Assembly: GCF_000384315.1 (NCBI RefSeq)
Contig: NZ_ARVW01000001.1
Coordinates: 567,746 to 631,745, forward strand
Direction of reading: 5' to 3'
DNA length: 64,000 nucleotides
Origin: Amycolatopsis nigrescens CSC17Ta-90
GTDB taxonomy: Bacteria > Actinomycetota > Actinomycetes > Mycobacteriales > Pseudonocardiaceae
The notes under the pieces are model-generated. The model was not told the origin of the DNA. It ran no database searches and was given only the letters and a program-made list of their open reading frames with translations. This document shows, in pieces, positions 6,667 through 21,182 of the stretch. Position 1 is the stretch's first letter. The number at the start of each line of letters is the position of its first letter. The position numbers and the translations under genes were made by a program.

Positions 6667-7833
6667 ATGGAAACCGTCGCACCGGAGGGTTCGGGACCGC
6701 TGGCCGGCGTCCGGGTCATCGACCTGTCGACCGTGGTGATGGGCCCCTACGCCGCGCAGATCCTGGGCGACCTCGGCGCGGACGTGGTCAAGATCGAGTC
6801 GCCATCGGACACCGTGCGCCACGGCGAGTACCGGCACACCCCGGGGATGACCGCGCTGAGCCTCAACGTCAACCGCAACAAGCGCAGTGTGGCCCTCAAC
6901 CTCAAGGACGACGCCGGCCGCGAGCGGGCGCTGCGGCTGATCGACTCCGCCGACGTGCTGATCACCAACATGCGCCCCGGCGCGCTGGCCAGGCTCGGCC
7001 TGGACCACGAGCAGCTGGCCGGGCGCAACGAAAAGCTCATCTACGCGCACGCACAGGGTTTCCGCGCGGATTCCGACCGGGCCGGCAATGCCGCCTACGA
7101 CGAGACAGTGCAGGCATCCTCCGGGCTGGTCGACGTGGCGAACCGGGCCATCGGCAGGCCGGTGTACCTGCCCACGATCCTCGGCGACAAGGTGTCCGCG
7201 CTGACCATCGTCTACTCCGTGCTGGCCGCGCTGGTGCACCAGCGGGCGACCGGTGCCGGCCAGTACATCGAGGTGCCGATGACCGACACCATGATCGCCT
7301 TCAACCTGGTCGAGCACCTGGCCGGGCACACCTTCGAGCCGGCGACCGGGCCGACCGGGTTCCGCCTCTCGATGTCCGAAGGCCACCAGGCGGTGCCCAC
7401 CAAGGACGGGCTGGCCTGCGTGATCCCCTACAACCCGCAGAACTTCCGCGACTTCTTCACCGCCGCCGGCCGGCCGGACCTTGCCGAGGACCCGAGGGTC
7501 GCCGGGGACAGCCTTGACAACGCCGACACCGGCGACCTGGCCGCGCTGATCGCGGAGTGCTCCCCGGCGCTGACCACCGACGAGTGGGCCGAGGTCTGCG
7601 CCAAGCACAGCATCCCGATGGCGCCGGTGCTGGAGCTCGACCGCGCCGCCGAGGACCCCTACGTCGCCGACGGTCACCTGCTGGACCTGGTCGAGCACCC
7701 GACCGAGGGCCCGATCCGCTCGATCGGCCTGCCGGTGCGGTTCTCCGCCACCCCCGGCTCGATCCGCCGTCCCGCGCCGGTGCCCGGCGAGCACACCGAC
7801 GAGGTCTTCGCCGAGCTGTCCACACAGGACTGA
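6667..7833 (+). CDS. CaiB/BaiF family (class III) CoA-transferase
   Basis: The 388-residue enzyme moves CoA from a donor thioester to a carboxylic acid. Family landmarks are MGPYAAQILGDLGADVVKIE (25-44), the presumed nucleophile Asp145 in YDETVQASSG, and the C-terminal region that packs around the partner in the interlocked dimer. It is the first gene of a five-gene operon with enoyl-CoA hydratase, a decarboxylase-like protein, 3-hydroxyacyl-CoA dehydrogenase and acyl-CoA dehydrogenase. Its job is probably to activate the starting acid. The substrate is not evident. GAGGAG precedes the ATG. Confidence 0.9.
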   Translation: METVAPEGSGPLAGVRVIDLSTVVMGPYAAQILGDLGADVVKIESPSDTVRHGEYRHTPGMTALSLNVNRNKRSVALNLKDDAGRERALRLIDSADVLITNMRPGALARLGLDHEQLAGRNEKLIYAHAQGFRADSDRAGNAAYDETVQASSGLVDVANRAIGRPVYLPTILGDKVSALTIVYSVLAALVHQRATGAGQYIEVPMTDTMIAFNLVEHLAGHTFEPATGPTGFRLSMSEGHQAVPTKDGLACVIPYNPQNFRDFFTAAGRPDLAEDPRVAGDSLDNADTGDLAALIAECSPALTTDEWAEVCAKHSIPMAPVLELDRAAEDPYVADGHLLDLVEHPTEGPIRSIGLPVRFSATPGSIRRPAPVPGEHTDEVFAELSTQD

Positions 7834-7846
7834 CAGGAGAATCCTC

Positions 7847-8614
7847 ATGAGCACCAACGAAGTACGCACCGAAGTGATCGGCCGGACGCTTCTCATCACC
7901 ATCGACAGGGCAGCCGCCCGCAACGCGGTGAACGCAGCCGTGGCCACCGGGCTCGCCGCCGCCCTTGACCGGCTGGAGGCCGAGCCCGCACTGCGGGCCG
8001 CGGTGCTCACCGGCGCCGACGGCACGTTCAGCGCCGGGATGGATCTCAAGGCCGCGCTCGCCGGCGAGTCGCCCGAGCTGCCCGGCCGCGGGTTCGGCGG
8101 GCTGACCAGGGCCGAGACCTCGAAGCCGCTGATCGCCGCGGTGGAGGGCTGGGCCATGGGCGGCGGCTTCGAGCTGGCGCTGGGCTGCGACCTGATCGTG
8201 GCGGCCGAAGACGCGAAGTTCGGCCTGCCCGAGGTCAAGCGCGGACTGGTGGCCGCCGGTGGCGGGGCGATCCGGCTGCCGCACCGGATTCCGCACCACC
8301 TGGCGATGGAGCTGCTGCTCACCGGCGAGCCGATCACCGGCGCGCGGGCCGGCGAGCTCGGGATCGCCAACCGGGTGGTGCCCGCCGGCGACACCGCCGC
8401 GGTGGCGCTGCAGCTGGCCGAACAGCTCGCGGCGAACGCCCCGCTGGCGCTCGCCGCGGTGAAGAAGATCGTCCGTGCCGCCGACGGCGTGCCGGAGAAC
8501 GAGGCCTTCGCCGCACAGGCGAGGGAAATGGCCGGGTTGATGAGCTCGCAGGACGTGCGGGAGGGCATGCGCGCCTTCACCGAACGCCGCGCTCCGGCCT
8601 GGCAGGGAAAGTGA
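7847..8614 (+). CDS. Enoyl-CoA hydratase/isomerase (crotonase family)
   Basis: The 255-residue crotonase-fold protein has the oxyanion-hole region FSAGMDLKAAL and both hydratase glutamates: Glu109 in GGGFELAL and Glu129 in GLPEVKRG. This supports genuine hydratase chemistry on a 2-enoyl-CoA. AGGAGAATCCTC precedes the ATG, 13 bases after the CoA-transferase stop, so the genes are cotranscribed. Confidence 0.9.
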   Translation: MSTNEVRTEVIGRTLLITIDRAAARNAVNAAVATGLAAALDRLEAEPALRAAVLTGADGTFSAGMDLKAALAGESPELPGRGFGGLTRAETSKPLIAAVEGWAMGGGFELALGCDLIVAAEDAKFGLPEVKRGLVAAGGGAIRLPHRIPHHLAMELLLTGEPITGARAGELGIANRVVPAGDTAAVALQLAEQLAANAPLALAAVKKIVRAADGVPENEAFAAQAREMAGLMSSQDVREGMRAFTERRAPAWQGK

Positions 8615-8621
8615 GGCAGCG

Positions 8622-9365
8622 ATGAAGCTGGAAGAAGTCGCACGGCACGTGAGCACTCCGCTGGCCAGTCCGGCGTACGCGCCGGTCGTGCCGCGGTTCA
8701 CCAGCCGCGAGTATCTGAACATCGTGTACCGCACCGACGCCGACGCGTTGCGCGCCGTGGTGCCGGAACCGCTCGAACTCGACGAGCCGCTGGTGCGGTT
8801 CGAGGTGATGCGGATGGGCGACGTCACCGGCTACGGCCCGTACGTCGAGGCCGGGCAGGCGATCCCGGTGCGGTTCGACGGCGAGCGGGGCGAATACCTG
8901 CACGCCATGTACCTGGACAACTTCCCGGCGACCGCGTCCGGCCGCGAGGTGAGCGCATACCCGAAGACGATCGGTGCGCCGGACCTCTACCTGGACCACG
9001 GCGCGCTCGTCGGCACCCTGGACTACGGCTCGCTGCGGGTGGCCACCGCGACCATGGGCTACAAGCACCACCCGCTGGACCTCGCCGAGGCCAAGGCCCA
9101 GGTCACCGTGCCCACCTTCATGGTCAAACTGATCCCCGACTACGACGGCGCGCCGCGGGTGGCGGAGCTGGTCCGCACCGAGATCACCGACGTGGTGGTC
9201 CGTGAAGCGTGGACCGGCCCGGCACGGCTGCAGCTGTTCGAGCACGTACTGGCCCCGCTGGCCGACCTGCCGGTGCGCGAGGTCGTCTCGGCCAGCCATC
9301 TGCTGACCGATCTCACCCTGGCACCGGTCCGCCCGGTGCACGACTACCTGGGAGGTTCGCGATGA
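8622..9365 (+). CDS. Acetoacetate decarboxylase-like protein
   Basis: The 247-residue protein belongs to the ADC family. Arg29, Glu61, Glu76 and Lys115 (AYPKTIGAP) fall at the same numbers as the functional residues I recall for the Clostridium enzyme. Lys115 would be the Schiff-base lysine. Residue 116 is Thr, whereas classical ADC has a second lysine there, so the pKa tuning and perhaps the reaction may differ. Some ADC-fold proteins do aldol or hydratase chemistry instead. It starts 7 bases after the hydratase gene, within the operon. Confidence 0.85.
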   Translation: MKLEEVARHVSTPLASPAYAPVVPRFTSREYLNIVYRTDADALRAVVPEPLELDEPLVRFEVMRMGDVTGYGPYVEAGQAIPVRFDGERGEYLHAMYLDNFPATASGREVSAYPKTIGAPDLYLDHGALVGTLDYGSLRVATATMGYKHHPLDLAEAKAQVTVPTFMVKLIPDYDGAPRVAELVRTEITDVVVREAWTGPARLQLFEHVLAPLADLPVREVVSASHLLTDLTLAPVRPVHDYLGGSR

Positions 9366-10309
9366 GCGAGCGATTCCGCACGGCGGCGGTACTCGGCGCC
9401 GGCACCATCGGACTGTCCTGGACCGCGCTGTTCGCCGGGCACGGCCTGCGGGTCCGGGTCAGCGACCCCCGGCCCGACCTGGCCGAGGCGGTGGCGGGCG
9501 CGCTGGCCGCGTTCGCCCCGCACCTGGCCGCGCAGGGCCTGGACGTGACCGACCTGGCGGCGCGGGTGGAGATCGCCACCGACACCACCGACGCGGTGCG
9601 CGACGCGGACGTGGTCCAGGAGAACGGCCCCGAGAACGTCGAGTTCAAGCGGGAACTCTTTGCGACGCTGGTCCGCGAGGCCCCGGCGGACGCCCTGCTG
9701 CTCAGCTCTTCCTCGGCCATCCCGTCCAGCGAGTTCGCCGGTGAAGGTGACGGCGCCGGGCGGGTGCTGATCGGGCACCCGTTCAACCCGCCGCACCTGG
9801 TCCCGCTGGTCGAAGTGGTGCCAGGCAGGCAAACCACCGAGGAGTCGGCGGCACGAGCGGTGGAGTTCTACCGGTTCCTCGGCCGCGTCCCTGTGGTGGA
9901 ACGCAAGGAGATTCCCGGTTTCGTCGGCAACCGGCTGCAGAACGCGCTGCAGCGGGAGGCCATCTACCTCGTCGAGCAGGGCGTGGTCTCCCCCGCCGAG
10001 CTGGACACCGTGCTGGTGAACTCGCTCGGCCTGCGCTGGTCCACCGTCGGGCCGTTCCTCGGCTCGCACCTGGGCGGCGGCCCCGGCGGGTACCGGCACA
10101 TGGCCGAGCACATCGGCAAGTCGATGCACCGGATGTGGGACTCCCTCGGCAAGCCCGAGCAGGGACCCGAACAACGGGAACGGCTCATCGAAGCCGTGGA
10201 AAACGCTTACGGCGCGCAGAGCTACGCCGAGCTCACCGAAGAACGTGACCGCAGGCAGCTCGCCGTGCTGTCTGCTTTGGACAGTGCGAACAAGGAGGTT
10301 CAGTCATGA
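9362..10309 (+). CDS. 3-hydroxyacyl-CoA dehydrogenase family, NAD-dependent
   Basis: The 315-residue protein has an N-terminal Rossmann fold (GAGTIG at 12-17) and the family His139 in GHPFNPPHLVPLVEV. A helical C-terminal dimerisation domain follows, with GFVGNRLQNAL. Its length fits stand-alone 3-hydroxyacyl-CoA or L-gulonate/carnitine-type dehydrogenases. The ATG overlaps the previous stop (ATGA), and its own stop overlaps the next start, so the operon is tightly coupled. Confidence 0.9.
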   Translation: MSERFRTAAVLGAGTIGLSWTALFAGHGLRVRVSDPRPDLAEAVAGALAAFAPHLAAQGLDVTDLAARVEIATDTTDAVRDADVVQENGPENVEFKRELFATLVREAPADALLLSSSSAIPSSEFAGEGDGAGRVLIGHPFNPPHLVPLVEVVPGRQTTEESAARAVEFYRFLGRVPVVERKEIPGFVGNRLQNALQREAIYLVEQGVVSPAELDTVLVNSLGLRWSTVGPFLGSHLGGGPGGYRHMAEHIGKSMHRMWDSLGKPEQGPEQRERLIEAVENAYGAQSYAELTEERDRRQLAVLSALDSANKEVQS

Positions 10310-11487
10310 CCGGCCCACTCACCGCCGACTTCTACGGCTACGAGGATCTGCTTCCCGAAGAAGAGCGCAAGATGCTGCTGAAGGCACGCGACTTCATGCG
10401 CACCGAGGTGAAGCCACTGGTCAACGAGTACTGGGCGAAGGGCGAGTTCCCGCACGAGCTGATCGGCAAGTTCCGCGAGCTGGGCCTGACCGGGCTGGCC
10501 TACGAGGGCTACGGCGACCCGCTGCCCGCGGCGAGCCACCTGCTGGTCGGCATGCTCGCCATGGAGTACAGCCGCACCGACGCCTCGGTGGCCACCTTCT
10601 ACGGTGTCCACAACGGACTCGCGATGTACAGCGTGTACCGCGGCGGCGACCAGGAGCAGCGCGACCGCTAGCTGCCCGCGATGGCCGCCATGGACAAGAT
10701 CGGCGCCTTCGCGATGACCGAGCCGCTGGGCGGCTCCGACGTCGCGGGCGGCATGCGCACCACCGCCAGGCGCGAGGGCGACACCTGGATCCTCGACGGC
10801 GCCAAGAAGTGGATCGGCAACGCCACCTTCGCCGACCTGGTCGTGGTCTGGGCGCGGGACGTGGCCGACGACAAGGTCAAGGGCTTCGTGGTGGATAAGG
10901 GCACTCCCGGCTTCGAGGCGGTCAAGATCGAGCACAAGATCGCGTTCCGGATCGTGGAGAACGCGGAGATCACGCTGACCGGCGTGCGGGTGCCCGAGGC
11001 GAACCGTCTGCAGCGGATCGGCTCGTTCCGCGACGTGGCCGAGGTCCTGCGCGCCACCCGCGGCGGGGTGGCCTGGCAGGCGCTGGGCGTGATGATCGGC
11101 GCCTACGAGCTGGCGCTGGACTACGCCAAGCAGCGCGAGCAGTTCGGCCGCCCGATCGCGCGGTTCCAGCTGGTGCAGGACCTGCTGGTGAAAAGCCTCG
11201 GCAACATCACCGCGTCCTGGGGCATGCTGGTGCAGCTGGCCAGGCTGCAGGACGCCGGGATCTTCCGCGACGAGCACTCCTCGCTGGCCAAGGCATTCGT
11301 CACGGCCAGGATGCGCGAGGTGGTGGCCTGGAGCCGGGAGATCTTCGGCGGCAACGGAATCGTACTGGACCACGACATCGCCCGGTTCTTCGCGGACGCC
11401 GAGGCGATCTACTCCTTCGAAGGCACCAGGGAGATGAACACCCTGATCGTCGGCAAGGCGATCACCGGCCAGAGCGCCTTCGTCTGA
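10306..11487 (+). pseudogene. Acyl-CoA dehydrogenase (glutaryl-CoA dehydrogenase-like) with in-frame TAG
   Basis: The reading frame spans 394 codons of an acyl-CoA dehydrogenase and is broken by a single TAG at 10669-10671. The first 121 residues carry the helical N-domain. After the stop the same frame resumes ([20 protein letters not shown], an ATG at 10681) through the beta domain to the base-bearing EGTREMN and the C-terminus [11 protein letters not shown] typical of GcdH-like enzymes. The context reads DR-stop-LPA, where the family has an aromatic residue, so TGG to TAG (base 10670) is the simplest lesion. It is either a recent nonsense mutation or a sequence error; nothing else in the gene has decayed. 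Confidence 0.85.
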
Positions 11488-13133: not shown

Positions 13134-14954
13134 CTATTCGAGCTCCAAAGTGGAGAGTACGAGTCCGGCGAGCGCGGCGGGGTCGCCGTCCGCGTGGCGC
13201 AGCACCAGGTCCGGCTGCAACGGGGCCTCGTAGGGATCGTCGACCCCGGTGAAACCGGTGATCTCCCCGGCCATCGCCTTGGCGTACAAGCCCTTGGGGT
13301 CGCGCTCGGCGCAGACCTCCAGCGGCGTGTCCACGAACACCTCGGTGAACGACAGGCCCGCCGCCTGGTGCGCGGCCCGCACCCGTTCCCGGTCGGCCCG
13401 GTACGGACTGATCAACGAGACCACCGTGACCATGCCCGCGTCCGCGAACAGCTGCGCCACTTCACCGACCCGACGCACGTTTTCCGCCCGGTCGGCCGCG
13501 GCGAACCCGAGGTCCGCGTTCAGCCCGTGCCGGAGGTTGTCCCCGTCCAGCAGGTACGCGGGGGTCCCGGCGGCGACCAGCCGCCGCTCCAGCTCCACCG
13601 CGATCGAGGACTTGCCGGACGCGGAAAGCCCGGTGAGCCAGATCGTGCGCCCGCGCGTGGCGCGGTCGTCCCGGCCGACTGCCGCGGAATGCCACACCAC
13701 GTTCGTGCTCTGCCGCCGCGGCCCGGCGATCATGCCGGCGGCGACCGTGTTGTTGGTGGCCTCGTCGATCAGGATGAAACTGCCGGTGGTGCGGTTGCGG
13801 CGGTAGGGGTCGAACTGCAGCGGCCGCTGCGTGCGCAGCCGGATCCGGCCGATCTCGTTGAGCTGCAACGATTCCACCGACTCGTCGCGGTGCAGGGTCT
13901 GCACGTCGAGCCGGTAGTCCAGTTCCTTCACCTCGGCGCGGGTGTCGCGGGTGGTGTGCCGGACGACGTACTTCGCGCCCGGGGTGAGCGCGGACCTTTC
14001 GGTGAGCCAGCAGACCATCGCGTCGATGTCGTGCCCCGACTCCGGCCGGTTTCCCGGGCGGCAGAGCAGATCGCCCCGGCTGATGTCCAGCTCGTCGGCG
14101 AGCTGCAGGGTGACCGCCTGCGGCGCGAACGCCTCGGCCACCGGCACCCCGCCAGGCCCCCGGATCGCGGTGATCCTGGTGGTGAACCCGGACGGCAGCG
14201 CGACCACCTCGTCGCCGGGTTTGAGCACCCCGCCCGCCACCGTGCCGGCGTAGCCCCGGTAGTCCGTCGAGCGGATCACGTACTGCACCGGGAATCGCGC
14301 GTCGATCAGGTTGCGGTCCGAGGCGATGTGCACCTCTTCCAGCTGATGCAGCAGTGAAGTGCCCTCGTACCACGGCATGCTGGCGCTGCGGTGCACGATG
14401 TTGTCCCCGAGCAGCGCGGACATCGGCACGAAGGTCAGGTCGGAGATGTCCAGTTTCATCGCGAACCGGCTGAACTCCTCGCGGATCTCCTCGAACCGCT
14501 CCTGCGACCAGTCGACCAGGTCCATCTTGTTCACGCACAGCACCAGGTGCGGAATGCCGAGCAGGCTGGCCAGGAACGCATGCCGCCGCGACTGCTCGAG
14601 CACCCCGTGCCTGGCGTCGATCAGCACCAGCGCCAGGTCCGCTGTGGACGCACCGGTGACCATGTTCCTGGTGTACTGCGGATGTCCCGGGGTGTCCGCG
14701 ATGATGAACCGGCGCCTCGGGGTGGCGAAGTAGCGGTGTGCCACGTCGATCGTGATGCCCTGTTCCCGTTCGGCGCGCAGGCCGTCGGTGAGCAGCGCGA
14801 GGTCGGGGTAGTCGCTCCCGCGCTCGCGGCTGGTGCGCTCCACCGCGGCGAGCTGGTCGGTGAACACGGTCTTGGAGTCGAACAGCAGCCTGCCGATCAG
14901 GGTGGACTTCCCGTCGTCGACGCTGCCCGCGGTGGCCAGGCGAAGAAGTTGCAT
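13134..14954 (-). CDS. cysNC: Bifunctional sulfate adenylyltransferase subunit 1 / APS kinase
   Basis: The 606-residue fusion has an N-terminal CysN GTPase and a C-terminal CysC kinase. CysN shows GSVDDGKS (10-17), DTPGHPQYTRNM and NKMD. CysC starts near residue 430 with the P-loop GLSASGKSS and includes DGDNLRHGLN. With CysD it makes APS from sulfate and ATP using GTP hydrolysis, and then phosphorylates APS to PAPS. Its ATG overlaps the cysD stop (TGATG). No PAPS/APS reductase is seen nearby, so the PAPS may serve the sulfotransferase at 19038. Confidence 0.95.
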   Translation of the reverse strand: MQLLRLATAGSVDDGKSTLIGRLLFDSKTVFTDQLAAVERTSRERGSDYPDLALLTDGLRAEREQGITIDVAHRYFATPRRRFIIADTPGHPQYTRNMVTGASTADLALVLIDARHGVLEQSRRHAFLASLLGIPHLVLCVNKMDLVDWSQERFEEIREEFSRFAMKLDISDLTFVPMSALLGDNIVHRSASMPWYEGTSLLHQLEEVHIASDRNLIDARFPVQYVIRSTDYRGYAGTVAGGVLKPGDEVVALPSGFTTRITAIRGPGGVPVAEAFAPQAVTLQLADELDISRGDLLCRPGNRPESGHDIDAMVCWLTERSALTPGAKYVVRHTTRDTRAEVKELDYRLDVQTLHRDESVESLQLNEIGRIRLRTQRPLQFDPYRRNRTTGSFILIDEATNNTVAAGMIAGPRRQSTNVVWHSAAVGRDDRATRGRTIWLTGLSASGKSSIAVELERRLVAAGTPAYLLDGDNLRHGLNADLGFAAADRAENVRRVGEVAQLFADAGMVTVVSLISPYRADRERVRAAHQAAGLSFTEVFVDTPLEVCAERDPKGLYAKAMAGEITGFTGVDDPYEAPLQPDLVLRHADGDPAALAGLVLSTLELE

Positions 14955-15910
14955 CAGAAGTAACCTTCCTTCTTCCTGTCCTCCATACCGGCTTCGGAGA
15001 TCCGGTCGTCGGCACGAGTGGCACCGCGTTCGGTGATCCTGGTCGCGGCCACCTCGGTGAGCACCGCGTCGGGACTGGCGGCGCTCGACTCCACGCAACC
15101 GGTGCAGGTGGCGTCGCCGATGGTGCGGAAGCGCACCAGTGCGTCGAAGGGCTCTTCGCCTTCTTCGGGGGTGACGAACCTGGTGAGCGCGATCAGCATG
15201 CCGTCGCGCGGGAAGACGGTGCGGCGGTGCGCGTAGTAGAGCGAGGGCAGGTCGATCCGATCCGCCTCGATGTAGGACCAGATGTCCAGCTCGGTCCAGT
15301 TGGACAGCGGGAAGACCCGGATGTGCTCGCCCTTGCGGTGCCGTCCGTTGTAGAGGTTCCACAGCTCCGGCCGCTGGTTGCGGGGATCCCACTGGCCGAA
15401 CTCGTCGCGGAAGCTGAACACCCTTTCCTTGGCACGCGCCTTTTCCTCGTCCCGGCGGGCACCGCCGAACACCGCGTCGAACCGGTTCTCCGTGATGGTC
15501 CGCAGCAGGGTGGTGGTCTGCAGCCGGTTCCGGCTCGCCCTCGGCCCGGTCTCGGCCACCACCCGGCCGGCATCCAGGTCGTCCTGCACGCTGGCCACCA
15601 GCAGCCGCGCGCCGTAGTCGGCGGCGGCGCGGTCCCGGAACTCGATCACCTCGTCGAAGTTGTGCCCGGTGTCCACGTGCACCACCGGGAACGGCAGCGG
15701 CGCCGGCCAGAATGCCTTGGCCGCCAGGTGCAGCATGACCATCGAGTCCTTGCCGCCGGAGAACAGCAGCGCCGGCCGCTCGAAGGTGGCCGCGACCTCG
15801 CGGAAGATGTGCACCGCCTCGGCTTCCAGCGCGTGCAGGTGGGACAGCTCGTAGGTCGCGGGTGTTGCAGACCCGGCCGAGTTAGCGGTGTTCGAGGAGA
15901 GCACAGTCAC
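14954..15910 (-). CDS. cysD: Sulfate adenylyltransferase subunit 2
   Basis: The 318-residue ATP-pyrophosphatase-type subunit has the PP-loop SGGKDS (51-56), HVDTGHNF and a C-terminal region with YYAHRRTVF. It adenylates sulfate in complex with CysN. I chose the GTG at 15908-15910 because GGGGG lies 7 bases upstream; a TTG 21 bases earlier would add seven residues. The 86 bases upstream contain two TTGACC direct repeats on the minus strand that may be part of the promoter. Confidence 0.94.
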   Translation of the reverse strand: MTVLSSNTANSAGSATPATYELSHLHALEAEAVHIFREVAATFERPALLFSGGKDSMVMLHLAAKAFWPAPLPFPVVHVDTGHNFDEVIEFRDRAAADYGARLLVASVQDDLDAGRVVAETGPRASRNRLQTTTLLRTITENRFDAVFGGARRDEEKARAKERVFSFRDEFGQWDPRNQRPELWNLYNGRHRKGEHIRVFPLSNWTELDIWSYIEADRIDLPSLYYAHRRTVFPRDGMLIALTRFVTPEEGEEPFDALVRFRTIGDATCTGCVESSAASPDAVLTEVAATRITERGATRADDRISEAGMEDRKKEGYF

Positions 15911-15996
15911 GGTGAAACCCCCATCAGCCAAAATAAAGCTTGGTCAAGTTTTCGGGACCGGTCAACAAGGGTGAAAGCAGGCAGACAAGATTAGTT

Positions 15997-16977
15997 TCAG
16001 CTTGAGATAAATCCATCAAGTCGGGCATCCCCCCTTTCGCCGCCGGAGTACCCTGTCCACGCCTCGGGTTTCTTGCCGCCCGCCGCCTCGGTGACCGCGT
16101 TCGCGGCGGCGGCCAGCGCGGCGCCGCGGCGGGCGATCTCGGCGCCGGAGATCGTGTCCCCGACGTACAGCGTGAGCACGAGCTCCTGGCGGCCGTCCGC
16201 GCCGAAGGTGGGCGCCGCGAGCAGGCTCACCGGGAGTTGGCCGCGCGGCGACAGCTCCGCGTCGAGGTACACCCGCTCCCCCAGGCTGGACACCAGCTCA
16301 CCGACCAGTTCGCGCAGTTCGTCGGGCAGGTCGTAGGCCGCGACCCCGGACATCAGTTTGTGCAGCCGCTGCCCGGCCGCGGTCAGGCTCTCCGCCAGGT
16401 AGCCGCGGGCGCGGCATTCGGTGACCACCCGCCGGAGCAGCTTCCGGTCCAGGCTCATCGGCAAGATGGGCGGCTTCGCCAGCCAGTCCGTCAGCCCGGA
16501 GTCGGGGCCCCAGAGCACGTACATCAGCCCGACCGGCGGCGCGAAGGGGTAGCGCTGGCCGACCTGGACGGCGGTCTTTCCCCGCGGGCCGGCGCTTTCC
16601 AGCACCACGATCTGCCCGCCGGTGACCGCCGACGCGGTGCAGGTGGTGCCGTAGCGTTCGCTCAGCTCGGCCAGCCGCGGCCCGGCCAGCGCGGCGGCCG
16701 CGAACTCGTCCTGGGCCAGCCTGCCCGCGGCGATCAGCCCGGGGCCGAGCCGGTAGGTCTTGTGCACCGGGTCTCGCACCAGGTAGCCGCCCGCCGACAG
16801 CTCGGTCACGATGCCGAGGCAGGTGGGCTTGCTCAGGCCCAGTTCCCGTGCCAGCTCGGACAGCCCGAACCCGGCGCCGCCGTTGGCCACGAAGAAGTCG
16901 AGCAGCCGCACGACCCGCTCGGTCGGCGGGGAACGCCGGGCCGGCGCCTTCGAGACTTCCGAAATCTCCGAAGTCAT
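15997..16977 (-). CDS. IclR-family transcriptional regulator
   Basis: The 326-residue protein has an IclR winged helix (about 18-80, with LSELARELGLSKPTCLGIVTEL split across the recognition helix) and a C-terminal effector-binding domain. The ATG at 16977 has AGGAG six bases upstream; a TTG at 16983 is too close to that site. It is divergent from the DUF1214/SDR/sulfotransferase genes and followed by cysD on the same strand, so it could control both arms. Confidence 0.88.
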   Translation of the reverse strand: MTSEISEVSKAPARRSPPTERVVRLLDFFVANGGAGFGLSELARELGLSKPTCLGIVTELSAGGYLVRDPVHKTYRLGPGLIAAGRLAQDEFAAAALAGPRLAELSERYGTTCTASAVTGGQIVVLESAGPRGKTAVQVGQRYPFAPPVGLMYVLWGPDSGLTDWLAKPPILPMSLDRKLLRRVVTECRARGYLAESLTAAGQRLHKLMSGVAAYDLPDELRELVGELVSSLGERVYLDAELSPRGQLPVSLLAAPTFGADGRQELVLTLYVGDTISGAEIARRGAALAAAANAVTEAAGGKKPEAWTGYSGGERGDARLDGFISS

Positions 16978-16987
16978 TGCCAACTCC

Positions 16988-17001
16988 TAGAACACGTTCT
17001 A
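16988..17001. promoter_or_regulatory. KstR-like operator
   Basis: TAGAACACGTTCTA fits the mycobacterial KstR consensus TnnAACnnGTTnnA as I recall it, and is symmetric apart from the two central bases. It lies 10 bases before the IclR start and 63 bases before the DUF1214 gene, so it could control both directions. KstR represses sterol catabolism genes. No KstR gene is in the window. Confidence 0.6.
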
Positions 17002-17018
17002 ATCTGACCGAACTGAAA

Positions 17019-17035
17019 TGTACCAGGCCGGTACA
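17019..17035. promoter_or_regulatory. Inverted repeat, possible IclR site
   Basis: TGTACC and GGTACA are separated by 5 bases, 28 bases upstream of the DUF1214 start codon. The position suits autoregulation by the divergent IclR protein or control of the DUF1214 operon. No experimental consensus is available. Confidence 0.4.
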
Positions 17036-17063
17036 GATTTGGACCAGCCCGAGGAGGCCGTGG

Positions 17064-18233
17064 ATGCTCACTCAGTCCTTCGCCGATGCCATCACCGAGG
17101 CGGAGAAGGTCATCACCGAGGCGCCCCATGTGCGGTCGGAGCGGGATCTGGTGGAGGGCTACGACTATCTGGCCGGCAGCATCCGCGCCGCGGTGCAGTC
17201 GGCATGGGGGTACGAGCGCGACTTCCCGTACTTCACCCAGTCCGCCACGCCTTACACGAAGGTCGGCCTGGACAACCCGGACACGCTCTACTACAACGCC
17301 CGAATCCGGGACGACGTCGAGTACATCGTCTCCGGCACCAGGGGCAGCACCAGCGATCTCAGCTTCCAGATCCTCAACGGCGCCTACTCCCCGGTGGACG
17401 TCCCGGACAGCCTCTCCGCCTTCGACGACCGGGAAATCACCATCGACGAGGACGGCCGCTTCGAGCTGCGGTTCGGCCCGGCGAAGGCGGACGCCGGGCC
17501 GAACTACTTCACCCTCGGCCCCGGCGCGGCCATGCTGCTGGTGCGCGAGGTGTACAGCGACTGGGACACCGAACGCCGCGGCAACATCCGCATCCAGCGC
17601 GCGGACCGGGTCGGCATGGCGCCGGCGCCGTTGTCGAAGGACCTGCTGGCCAAGCGCTACGGCGCCGCGGGCAAGATCCTGCTCACCCAGCTCAAGACGT
17701 TCCTCGCCTTCCCGGAGTGGTTCTACCTCAAGCTGCCGGTCAACACGATGACCGAACCGCGCAGCACCCCCGGCGGGCTGAGCACCCAGTACTCGTCGGT
17801 GGGCCACTACGACCTCACCGACGAGCAGGCCATGGTGCTCACCGTGCCGGCCTCCGAAGCGCCGTATCAAGGCATCCAGCTCGGCACCATGTGGTACATC
17901 TCGCTGGACTTCGTCAACCACCAGACCAGCCTCACCGCGGACCAGGCCAGGGTGGACCCGGACGGCCGGATCCGGTTCGTGATCAGCGAACGCGACCCCG
18001 GGGTGGCGAACTGGCTGGAACGCACCGGGCACGACCGGGGCTACATCCAGATTCGCTGGCAGCGGCTGTCCCGCGAGCTCACCGCGGCGGACGGGCCCGA
18101 AGTGGAGATCGTCGACGTCGGGGACTTGCCGCAACGGCTGCCGTACTACCGGGAAGCGCGGGTGACGCCGGCGGAATGGGCCGCGCGGATCGCCGCCCGC
18201 CAGGCCGCGGTCGCGACCAGGATGCTGGGGTGA
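17064..18233 (+). CDS. DUF1214-type conserved protein
   Basis: The 389-residue cytosolic protein has no signal. Its second half (GTMWYISLDFVNHQTSLT, DPDGRIRFVIS, DPGVANWL) resembles DUF1214-containing proteins that occur in actinobacterial lipid and steroid gene clusters. No catalytic motif is obvious and the function is unknown. GAGGAGG lies 6 bases before the ATG. The stop overlaps the start of the SDR gene, so the two are coupled. The KstR-like box upstream supports a lipid/steroid role (inference). Confidence 0.75.
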   Translation: MLTQSFADAITEAEKVITEAPHVRSERDLVEGYDYLAGSIRAAVQSAWGYERDFPYFTQSATPYTKVGLDNPDTLYYNARIRDDVEYIVSGTRGSTSDLSFQILNGAYSPVDVPDSLSAFDDREITIDEDGRFELRFGPAKADAGPNYFTLGPGAAMLLVREVYSDWDTERRGNIRIQRADRVGMAPAPLSKDLLAKRYGAAGKILLTQLKTFLAFPEWFYLKLPVNTMTEPRSTPGGLSTQYSSVGHYDLTDEQAMVLTVPASEAPYQGIQLGTMWYISLDFVNHQTSLTADQARVDPDGRIRFVISERDPGVANWLERTGHDRGYIQIRWQRLSRELTAADGPEVEIVDVGDLPQRLPYYREARVTPAEWAARIAARQAAVATRMLG

Positions 18234-19012
18234 GCCCGGTGCTGACCGGCAAGGTGGTGGTCGTGTCCGGGGTCGGCCCCGGTCTCGGGCAGGCGATCGC
18301 GCTCCAGTGCGCGAAGGCCGGTGCCGACGTGGTGCTGGCCGCCCGCACCGAATCCCGGCTCGCCGAGGTGGCCGAGCAGGTCACCGCGCTGGGCCGTCGC
18401 GCGCTGGCGGTGCGCACCGACATCACCGACGACGAGTCGGCCCGGCGGCTGGCCGAAACCGCGACGGAGACCTTCGGCCGGGTGGACACGCTGGTGCACA
18501 ACGCTTTCGCCATCCCGCCGCTGGCCGACCTCGGGGGGACCGAACTGGCCGATATCCGGCGGGCGCACGAGACGAACGTGCTCGCCGCGCTGCGGCTGAC
18601 CCAGTTGTGCACCCCGGCGCTGACCGAGTCCGGCGGCTCGGTGGTGATGATCAACTCCGCGGTGCTGCGGCATTCCAGGCGCAGCTTCGGCGCGTACAAG
18701 ATGAGCAAGGCCGGCCTGCTCGCGCTCGCGCAGAGCCTGGCCAGCGAGCTCGGGCCGCAGGGCGTGCGGGTGAACTCGGTGGCACCGGGCTACATCTGGG
18801 CCGACTCGCTCAAGTGGTACTTCGGCTATCTGGCCGAGCAACGCGGGATCAGCGCGGACGAGGTCTACCGCGAGACGGCCGAAACCCTGGACCTGCGCAA
18901 GCTGCCGGAGCCGGCGGAGATCGCCGACGCGGTGGTCTTCCTGGCCTCCCCGATGGCCCGCGCGATCACCGGGCAGTGCCTCGACGTCAACGGCGGCGAG
19001 TTCCACCACTGA
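18230..19012 (+). CDS. Short-chain dehydrogenase/reductase
   Basis: The 260-residue classical SDR has the nucleotide-binding SGVGPGLG (13-20), Ser143 and YKMSK (Tyr156, Lys160). The C-terminus has the family LDVNGGEFHH-type end. It begins with GTG at 18230 inside the stop of the DUF1214 gene (GTGA). Between DUF1214 and a sulfotransferase it may create or oxidise the hydroxyl that is later sulfated (inference). Confidence 0.9.
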   Translation: MSPVLTGKVVVVSGVGPGLGQAIALQCAKAGADVVLAARTESRLAEVAEQVTALGRRALAVRTDITDDESARRLAETATETFGRVDTLVHNAFAIPPLADLGGTELADIRRAHETNVLAALRLTQLCTPALTESGGSVVMINSAVLRHSRRSFGAYKMSKAGLLALAQSLASELGPQGVRVNSVAPGYIWADSLKWYFGYLAEQRGISADEVYRETAETLDLRKLPEPAEIADAVVFLASPMARAITGQCLDVNGGEFHH

Positions 19013-19037
19013 ACTCTTACCGGAAGGGAGGGCACGG

Positions 19038-20195
19038 ATGAGCGCGGGACGCGAAAACGTGGGCACGGTCGAGGATCTGCACGCCTCGGCCACCAGGATC
19101 ACCGGGCTGGACGACTTCGGCCACGGCGAATACCGCGAAGGGCTCGAGGTCCTGCTCGAGTCCTATGCCCGCGACGCGGCGCTGACCCCGTTCGGCAACA
19201 AGGTGAAACGGGCGTTCCTGCGTGGCGCGCTGGTGGCCAGGCTGCTCAGCGAAGCGGCGTGGCGGCGGTTCCCCGAACATGCCGAGGTGCCGATCGAGCG
19301 GCCGATCTTCGTCACCGGCCTGCCCCGCACCGGCACCACCGCGCTGCACCGGCTGCTCGTGGAGGACCCGGCGCACCAGGGGCTCGAACTGTGGCTCACC
19401 GAGGTCCCGCAACCCCGGCCACCCCGCGAAACCTGGGCCGATGACCCGGTGTTCGAGCGGATCCAGCAGGGCTTCCGGCAGCACCACGTGGAGCATCCGG
19501 AGTTCATGGGCGCGCACTACATGTCCGCCGACATGGTCGAGGAGTGCTGGCAACTGCTGCGCCAGTCGATGATGTCGGTGTCCTACGAATGCCTGGCCCA
19601 CCTGCCCGGCTACTCGCGCTGGCTGGCCGGGCGGGACTGGGTGCCCGCCTACCGCCGGCACCGGCGCAACCTGCAGCTGATCGGCCTGCCCGACCGCGGC
19701 CGGCGCTGGGTGCTGAAGAACCCCAGTCACCTGTTCGCGCTGGACGCGCTGTTCGAGGTCTACCCGGACGCGCTGGTGATCCAGACGCACCGGGACCCCG
19801 CTCCGGTGATCGCGTCGGTCAGCAGCCTGAACGCGCAGGCCACCGCGGGCTGGTCGACCGGTTTCACCCCCGACGTCATCGGCCGCGACCAGCTCGACCT
19901 GTGGACGCGAGGACTCGAGCGGTTCACCGCGGACCGGGCGAAGCACGATCCGGCGCGGTTCTTCGACGTGCAGTTCGAGGACTTCACCGCCGACCCGCTC
20001 GGCACCGTCGAGTCCGTGTACCGGCGTTTCGGCATCCCGCTGGGCACCGACGCACGCGAGCGGATGGCGGCGATCCAGGCCGAGAGCACTTCGGGCGAGC
20101 GTCGCCCGGCGCACCGCTACCGGCTCGCCGACTTCGGCCTCACCGAAGCCGAGGTCTCAGCACGCTTCGCCGGCAGTTCCACCGCTGATCGCTGA
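19038..20195 (+). CDS. PAPS-dependent sulfotransferase (Sulfotransfer_3 type)
   Basis: The 385-residue protein has the 5'-phosphosulfate loop FVTGLPRTGTTAL (PSB loop, 94-101), LKNPSH (226-231) and the 3'-phosphate motif THRDPAPVIAS (Arg252 to Ser260). It should transfer sulfuryl from PAPS to a small-molecule alcohol or lipid. It is the third gene of the DUF1214-SDR group, and PAPS synthesis genes lie 3 kb away. Its last 56 bases overlap the convergent MauE-like gene. Confidence 0.88.
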   Translation: MSAGRENVGTVEDLHASATRITGLDDFGHGEYREGLEVLLESYARDAALTPFGNKVKRAFLRGALVARLLSEAAWRRFPEHAEVPIERPIFVTGLPRTGTTALHRLLVEDPAHQGLELWLTEVPQPRPPRETWADDPVFERIQQGFRQHHVEHPEFMGAHYMSADMVEECWQLLRQSMMSVSYECLAHLPGYSRWLAGRDWVPAYRRHRRNLQLIGLPDRGRRWVLKNPSHLFALDALFEVYPDALVIQTHRDPAPVIASVSSLNAQATAGWSTGFTPDVIGRDQLDLWTRGLERFTADRAKHDPARFFDVQFEDFTADPLGTVESVYRRFGIPLGTDARERMAAIQAESTSGERRPAHRYRLADFGLTEAEVSARFAGSSTADR

Positions 20196-20583: not shown

Positions 20584-20756
20584 TCGGCCGCCGCCCCCAA
20601 GCCGCGTTGATAGTTTTCCGAGTTTCGCCGACTATCGGACCGGGGTCAAGCGAGCGGCGTCTCATGGCGGCGTCCCCTGCCGCTGATCTAGGGTGGTGCC
20701 AAGGGTGCATCCGGCGAACGACCGGTTTTTCTTGCCCTGAAAGAAAAGGATCTTTC

Positions 20757-21182
20757 ATGTCCGAGGCGGGACCGGCTAACTTCAACGAGCGCGTCATCAC
20801 GGAGTTCCGGGCGAACGGCGGCAAGGTCGGCCCGCCGTTCGAGGGGATGCCCATGGTGCTGCTGACCACCGTCGGCGCCAAGTCCGGCAAGTCCCGCACC
20901 ACGCCGCTGGTCTACCTGCCCGACGGCGAGCGGATCGTGATCATCGCGTCCAAGGGCGGCGCGCCGACCAACCCGGACTGGTTCCACAACGTGCTGGCCG
21001 ACCCCGAGGTCACGGTGGAGGTCGGCACCGAGTCCTACCAGGCGACCGCGGTCCGGATCGAAGGCGCCGAGCGCGACGAGGTCTACGCGCGCGTCGTGGA
21101 GATGGCCCCGGGTTTCGGCGAGTACCAGGAGAAGACCAGCCGGGTGATCCCGCTGTTCGCGCTCTACCGCAAGCAGGACTGA
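20757..21182 (+). CDS. Deazaflavin (F420)-dependent nitroreductase-family protein (Ddn-like)
   Basis: The 141-residue split-barrel protein has TVGAKSGKSRTTPLVYL and SKGGAPTNPDWFHNVLADPEVTVEVG, the signature of the Ddn/FDOR-B group that uses F420H2. Physiological substrates are usually quinones or are unknown. The ATG follows AAAGGA with 6-base spacing. The frame is open further upstream but without coding character. A GATAGT/ACTATC inverted repeat (20609-20636) lies in the leader. Confidence 0.9.
   Translation: MSEAGPANFNERVITEFRANGGKVGPPFEGMPMVLLTTVGAKSGKSRTTPLVYLPDGERIVIIASKGGAPTNPDWFHNVLADPEVTVEVGTESYQATAVRIEGAERDEVYARVVEMAPGFGEYQEKTSRVIPLFALYRKQD

Follow-up and report, generated by a model that had tools for sequence, protein, structure and literature searches.

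Probable KstR-controlled sulfonation island with its own PAPS synthesis genes in Amycolatopsis nigrescens

In rhizobia, extra copies of CysD and CysNC (NodP-NodQ) supply 3′-phosphoadenosine 5′-phosphosulfate (PAPS) to one sulfotransferase, NodH, whose acceptor is a lipochitooligosaccharide. Here we describe an island of comparable gene content, with another regulation and another sulfotransferase, in the soil actinomycete Amycolatopsis nigrescens CSC17Ta-90. It lies in a 64,000-nt stretch (the window, positions 567,746-631,745 of the 9.11-Mb genome, which is one contig) and consists of the PAPS synthesis genes cysD and cysNC with an IclR-family regulator gene and, on the other side of a shared promoter, of a triad of genes for a DUF1214-like protein, a short-chain dehydrogenase/reductase (SDR) and a PAPS-type sulfotransferase. 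Another system of this kind is found in Bacteroides, which belongs to another phylum than our host. There, putative PAPS synthesis genes adjoin a sulfotransferase in BT_0411-BT_0416, Bt_0412 and Bt_0416 are induced by cholesterol, and BT_0416 has cholesterol sulfotransferase activity (PMC9417993; this and the other papers are cited as far as their accessible text goes). That text mentions neither a DUF1214 or SDR partner nor KstR control; besides, cholesterol is the acceptor there, whereas the acceptor of the island is putative, and the likeness is one of gene content, not of compared sulfotransferases (PMC9417993).

The triad has a likely counterpart in Mycobacterium tuberculosis, where Stf1 (Rv3529c), a possible oxidoreductase and a hypothetical gene stand in the same order in Rv3529c-Rv3530c-Rv3531c (PMC1995591, PMC6429209, PMC8882603). 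The KstR motif was defined as TnnAACnnGTTnnA, with a site marked +ve listed between Rv3531c and Rv3532, and KstR evidence for the operon start that matches the island triad is already known (PMC1995591). Mycobacterial Stf3 is likewise a PAPS-dependent sulfotransferase; its acceptor is another one, and its partner is a P450 (PMC6469627). Our own comparison was made with loci of a Mycobacterium-like genus (g31), and the order and lengths of the triad genes agree with these. The window sulfotransferase matches PDB chain 2zq5_A, which we take to be Rv3529c, with an E value of 2.7e-157 (526.9 bits). Stf0 is a further PAPS-dependent mycobacterial sulfotransferase that differs in acceptor and partners, and we know of no DUF1214 partner of Stf0 or Stf3.

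The gene content and the promoter of the island suggest that it is probably a dedicated PAPS supply and sulfotransferase, controlled by KstR (cholesterol/steroid regulon) and acting on a steroid-derived alcohol, with putative substrate, product and product fate. What is new here is that the promoter between the two arms holds a perfect KstR box. The minus-strand arm contains cysNC, cysD and the IclR gene, and the divergent plus-strand arm the triad (Table 1). Because the genes of each arm overlap or stand at most 65 bp apart (the SDR gene overlaps the DUF1214-like gene, and 65 bp separate the IclR gene from the start of cysD, which follows it on its strand), the 80 bp at 16984-17063 form the main regulatory gap. 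The sequence-only reading of this DNA had placed cysD and cysNC next to a PAPS-type sulfotransferase, an SDR and a DUF1214-type gene, and window open reading frames (ORFs) and profile matches confirm these genes with their coordinates. It had also seen no PAPS reductase gene nearby, which holds in the genome-wide profile search: there is no cysH near the island, the sole PF01507 (PAPS reductase/CysD) match inside the window being cysD itself.

To be exact about the box, the TnnAACnnGTTnnA palindrome present in the promoter was found in none of 100 shuffles. Across the 9.1-Mb genome the strict form, TAGAACnnGTTCTA, has 4 sites against 0.03 expected from the window base composition and 0 for the reversed pattern; the loose form has 52 sites versus 32 in the control, and by itself it is weak evidence genome-wide. 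For conservation, we scanned 138 loci within 260 bp upstream of the DUF1214 gene with the strict form, the loose form and, as a control, the reversed loose pattern, and these matched in 97, 111 and 0 loci, respectively. In a genome of the same genus as the window (G330) the triad and cysD-cysNC are split, 1.1 Mb apart, and a strict box stands both at the triad (L044) and at the cysD start (L190). The scan of 26 cysD loci not linked to the triad, over a stretch that began 300 bp before cysD and reached 90 bp into the gene, gave a box in this one and none in the other 25. A separate box before cysD was seen in only 9 of 93 linked loci, and in most linked loci the box stands near the triad, as expected if IclR-cysD-cysNC is read from the shared gap; the expectation is less clear where a SnoaL gene intervenes. 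The second inverted repeat of the gap may be the IclR site.

The host encodes both KstR and steroid-ring catabolism. Its one PF17925 regulator has 5ua2, 5cw8 and 5aqc (named KstR) and 3mnl as closest PDB chains (E 4.8e-73 to 3mnl and 5.3e-73 to 5ua2), and the gene has as neighbours a loose match to the KstR motif and an ORF resembling, by eye, an acyl-CoA dehydrogenase, as in the described kstR/fadE34 arrangement (PMC1995591). The genome also encodes KshA (63% identity) and KstD and HsaC, both above curated cut-offs, and another of its strict KstR boxes is followed by yrbE-like and mce-like ORFs (by eye). Of the 11 g31 loci fetched, 10 have kshA, which we take to be Rv3526 in M. tuberculosis, as a neighbour of the triad. 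Tables of two papers place Rv3529c-Rv3531c near the KstR-linked Rv3525c/Rv3526 (PMC6429209, PMC1995591). The guess of a steroid-like acceptor, made before the operator had been seen, is unexpectedly backed by the perfect KstR box and by kshA next to the g31 triads.

Table 1. Features of the island (window positions).
Feature	Position	Strand	Evidence
cysNC, ATP-sulfurylase GTPase subunit fused to APS kinase, 606 aa	13134..14954	-	NF004035 957.9 bits (cut-off 715); APS_kinase 224.4 bits
cysD, ATP-sulfurylase catalytic subunit	14954..15931	-	NF003587 460.8 bits (cut-off 195)
IclR-family regulator	15997..16983	-	HTH_IclR 33.8 bits (cut-off 22)
KstR box TAGAACACGTTCTA	16988..17001	.	perfect match, in the sole intergenic region separating the two arms
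Second inverted repeat GGTACAGATTTGGACC	17030..17045	.	possible IclR operator
DUF1254/DUF1214-fold protein, 389 aa	17064..18233	+	predicted model matches solved DUF1254/DUF1214-type structures
SDR, 260 aa	18230..19012	+	adh_short_C2 176 bits; NF005909 388.9 bits on longer ORF
PAPS-type sulfotransferase, Sulfotransfer_3, 385 aa	19038..20195	+	204.1 bits (cut-off 27)

The cysNC start was placed at the ATG overlapping the cysD stop, the listed 752-aa ORF beginning too early, and the PP-loop SGGKDS of CysD is intact. For the DUF1214-like protein the Pfam score (PF06742) is 21.3 bits, under the cut-off of 25, and two diverged relatives (L179 and L174) reach 28.9 and 29.1 bits; judging from the predicted model, the window protein has the DUF1254/DUF1214 family fold. 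The sulfotransferase motif reads GLPRTGTT in 15 of 17 aligned rows and GLPRSGTT in the remaining 2.

Next to the island, at 6667-11487, there is a row of CoA-transferase-like and enoyl-CoA-hydratase-like genes (both by eye) with 3-hydroxyacyl-CoA and acyl-CoA dehydrogenase genes, the last of which seems divided between two ORFs (10306-10671, by eye, and 10681-11487). Downstream of the sulfotransferase, at 20607-21182, lies a gene of the F420H2-dependent quinone reductase family; none of the 139 related loci compared was found to have it at this place.

A second cysD/cysN set with cysH, for which the sequence-only reading had proposed a search, exists at about 375.6-378.4 kb of the genome. Its CysN (420 aa) is without a kinase, and its CysH has CC...CxxC cysteines, which are the cysteines of [4Fe-4S] adenosine 5′-phosphosulfate (APS) reductases; because of these two features, cysteine synthesis in the host should run via APS, with no need for PAPS. 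The genome has in total 2 APS-kinase domains and 2 Sulfotransfer_3 genes, and since each kinase has a sulfotransferase for a neighbour (at about 6 and 7-8 kb) in 9.11 Mb, the proximity of cysNC and sulfotransferase is not due to chance. The other pair, at 7.70 Mb (about 7.696-7.714 Mb; L010 11664-18851, L011 2257-13785), is a separate sulfonation cluster, with a sulfotransferase, an SDR, cysNC and a short cysD whose PP-loop is altered to SGDADS; it adjoins polyketide-synthase-like ORFs (by eye) and has no KstR box.

It is highly improbable, given this second set, that the PAPS of the island simply feeds sulfate assimilation or general sulfation in a neighbourhood inherited by chance. Such an arrangement would find a parallel in the single cysDNC operon that serves both branches in M. 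tuberculosis (PMC3141025), and many cysD-cysNC loci have no adjoining triad; against it stand, beside the separate cysH set, the one promoter region with one KstR box common to both arms, the box kept in the split genome, and the association and box kept in the diverged loci described below. A dedicated PAPS supply is therefore supported: the island set is not the sole cysD/cysNC set, and co-location recurs in relatives.

Co-location was considered in two sets of loci, which share genomes. The order sample covered 397 genomes, 102 with a match, and 102 sulfotransferase loci of at least 432 bits were counted, with 15 weaker rows left out. An APS kinase lies within 10 kb of the sulfotransferase in 42 of the 59 loci outside g31, as read from tables (the same after 37 further table rows); reading the DNA adds three loci with a kinase (L032, L037, L040) and a further locus (L218), at the end of a contig, with cysD and the first part of cysN. 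In the named loci, the best 80 of 472 matches, cysD and cysNC stand beside the triad in 58: 20/21 of Amycolatopsis, 29/29 of Nocardia, 3/4 of Rhodococcus, 2/2 of Saccharopolyspora, 2/4 of Prauserella, 1/1 each of Haloechinothrix and Prescottella, 0/14 of Actinomadura and 0/4 of four single-locus genera. The triad is nearly invariant, with the SDR in 80/80 named loci and DUF1214 in 78/80 (the 2 misses begin at contig ends). In one locus (L031, genome G231) only the APS-kinase part adjoins the triad, with no cysD or CysN match. All island genes point one way in three loci of genus g43 (L065-L067).

CysQ is a PAP (3′-phosphoadenosine 5′-phosphate) phosphatase, and of 140 loci, 24 have a CysQ-like gene next to the triad, with cysD-cysNC absent in 8 of these; the CysQ-like protein scores 82.6 bits with TIGR01331, below the cut-off of 228.8, and 101.7 bits with Inositol_P, above the cut-off. 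In 68 of 138 loci the gene directly upstream of DUF1214 encodes a SnoaL_4 protein. The IclR gene is kept beside many triads, not all, and together with the pairing of SDR and sulfotransferase, which would suit detoxification, this could indicate a route for detoxification or export of xenobiotic phenols and alcohols sensed by IclR, with the KstR box secondary. We consider this very unlikely, as IclR is missing from 46 of the 68 loci with SnoaL, and a match to the KstR motif is nevertheless present in 30 of these 46.

Diverged versions of the island occur in genus g11, where two loci (L179 and L207) have the order cysQ-cysD-cysNC-DUF1214-sulfotransferase-SDR and a third (L208) the same order with no cysQ detected. 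Their DUF1214, sulfotransferase and SDR proteins are 29-37% identical to those of the window and their CysD/CysN 48-50%; the L179 CysN falls in another supported group of the CysN tree (100/99), and a strict KstR box stands immediately before DUF1214 in all three loci. The association of cysD-cysNC with the triad is either very old or was built twice, and a functional link is favoured in both cases.

Four loci fetched from g31 (L173-L176) hold a paralogous DUF1214-sulfotransferase pair with an SDR 0.6-0.8 kb past the sulfotransferase; L173 and L176 had a TetR-like ORF called between sulfotransferase and SDR, L174 had none there, and the ORFs of L175 were not listed. These stretches gave no match to cysD, CysN or CysC. 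The main cysNC of g31 genomes (L185, L186, L188) groups in the CysN tree with the cysNC of triad loci and apart from the host's kinase-less CysN, though its placement is unsure.

Several observations weigh against a dedicated, KstR-controlled steroid sulfonation. No APS kinase was found within 10 kb of the sulfotransferase in any of the 43 g31 loci, in which cysD-cysNC beside the triad is missing, unlike in the window, and cysD-cysNC is likewise not beside the triad in 14/14 Actinomadura loci (at least 4 of which end within 6.3 kb on that side); adjacency is therefore not obligatory. Not even a loose KstR match was found in the stretch scanned upstream of DUF1214 in 27/138 loci (16/46 of the SnoaL type without IclR, 5/49 of the IclR type, 3/11 of g31 and 3/10 others). 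Of the paralogous loci, three (L173, L175, L176) are devoid of a KstR box, and the single weak match in L174 lies at a distance from the genes. The window is without the SnoaL and CysQ neighbours found in some relatives. Since many loci belong to closely related organisms and the two sets have several genomes in common, the counts are not independent events. Rv3529c (Stf1) was reported to block host MyD88-IRAK1 signalling (PMC8882603). Finally, because KstR was proposed by its authors to control the use of diverse lipids, the box does not by itself imply that the acceptor is a steroid (PMC1995591).

This last point also bears on a possible, though doubtful, alternative: a dedicated sulfonation island whose acceptor is a cell lipid, a quinone or a fatty alcohol and not a steroid, KstR only reporting lipid-derived CoA. 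Stf0 acts on trehalose, and g31 and g61 loci were the only ones found with kshA next to the triad, both of which would agree with such an acceptor. So would the hypothesis that M. tuberculosis Stf3 sulfonates a menaquinone (PMC6469627). The kshA neighbours in g31, the steroid-ring genes of the host and the wide conservation of the KstR box argue for a steroid.

For steroid sulfonation, we propose the following mechanism. CysD and CysN would make APS, which the fused CysC would turn into PAPS. With this PAPS the Sulfotransfer_3 enzyme would sulfonate a hydroxyl of a steroid-derived compound, and the PAP left over would, in some relatives, be cleared by the CysQ-like gene product. Generating or selecting the acceptor hydroxyl would be the task of the SDR; the DUF1214 protein may be a partner in substrate handling or in a neighbouring step. 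Both arms would start at the one 80-bp promoter, and KstR, whose ligand type is a steroid CoA-thioester, would bind there and repress until such a thioester appears, with IclR perhaps adding a second signal. Sulfonation could even be a catabolic step, in which the hydroxyl of a steroid or bile-acid intermediate becomes a leaving group as its sulfate, and elimination (dehydroxylation) is then driven by the SDR together with SnoaL or DUF1214, before ring opening. We regard this as unlikely; if true, KstR would pay for PAPS within the cholesterol programme and Rv3529c-type enzymes would gain a metabolic role.

With KstR-controlled steroid sulfonation as the probable reading, a PAPS factory would be tied to the cholesterol regulon in many actinobacteria. 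No acceptor for the Rv3529c-type sulfotransferase was found in the literature searched, and a metabolic role, steroid sulfonation, is here proposed for this enzyme with its DUF1214 and SDR partners. On this proposal, sulfated intermediates of steroids are to be expected in organisms that are thought to burn these compounds, and the island offers candidate steroid sulfotransferases with the PAPS supply built in.

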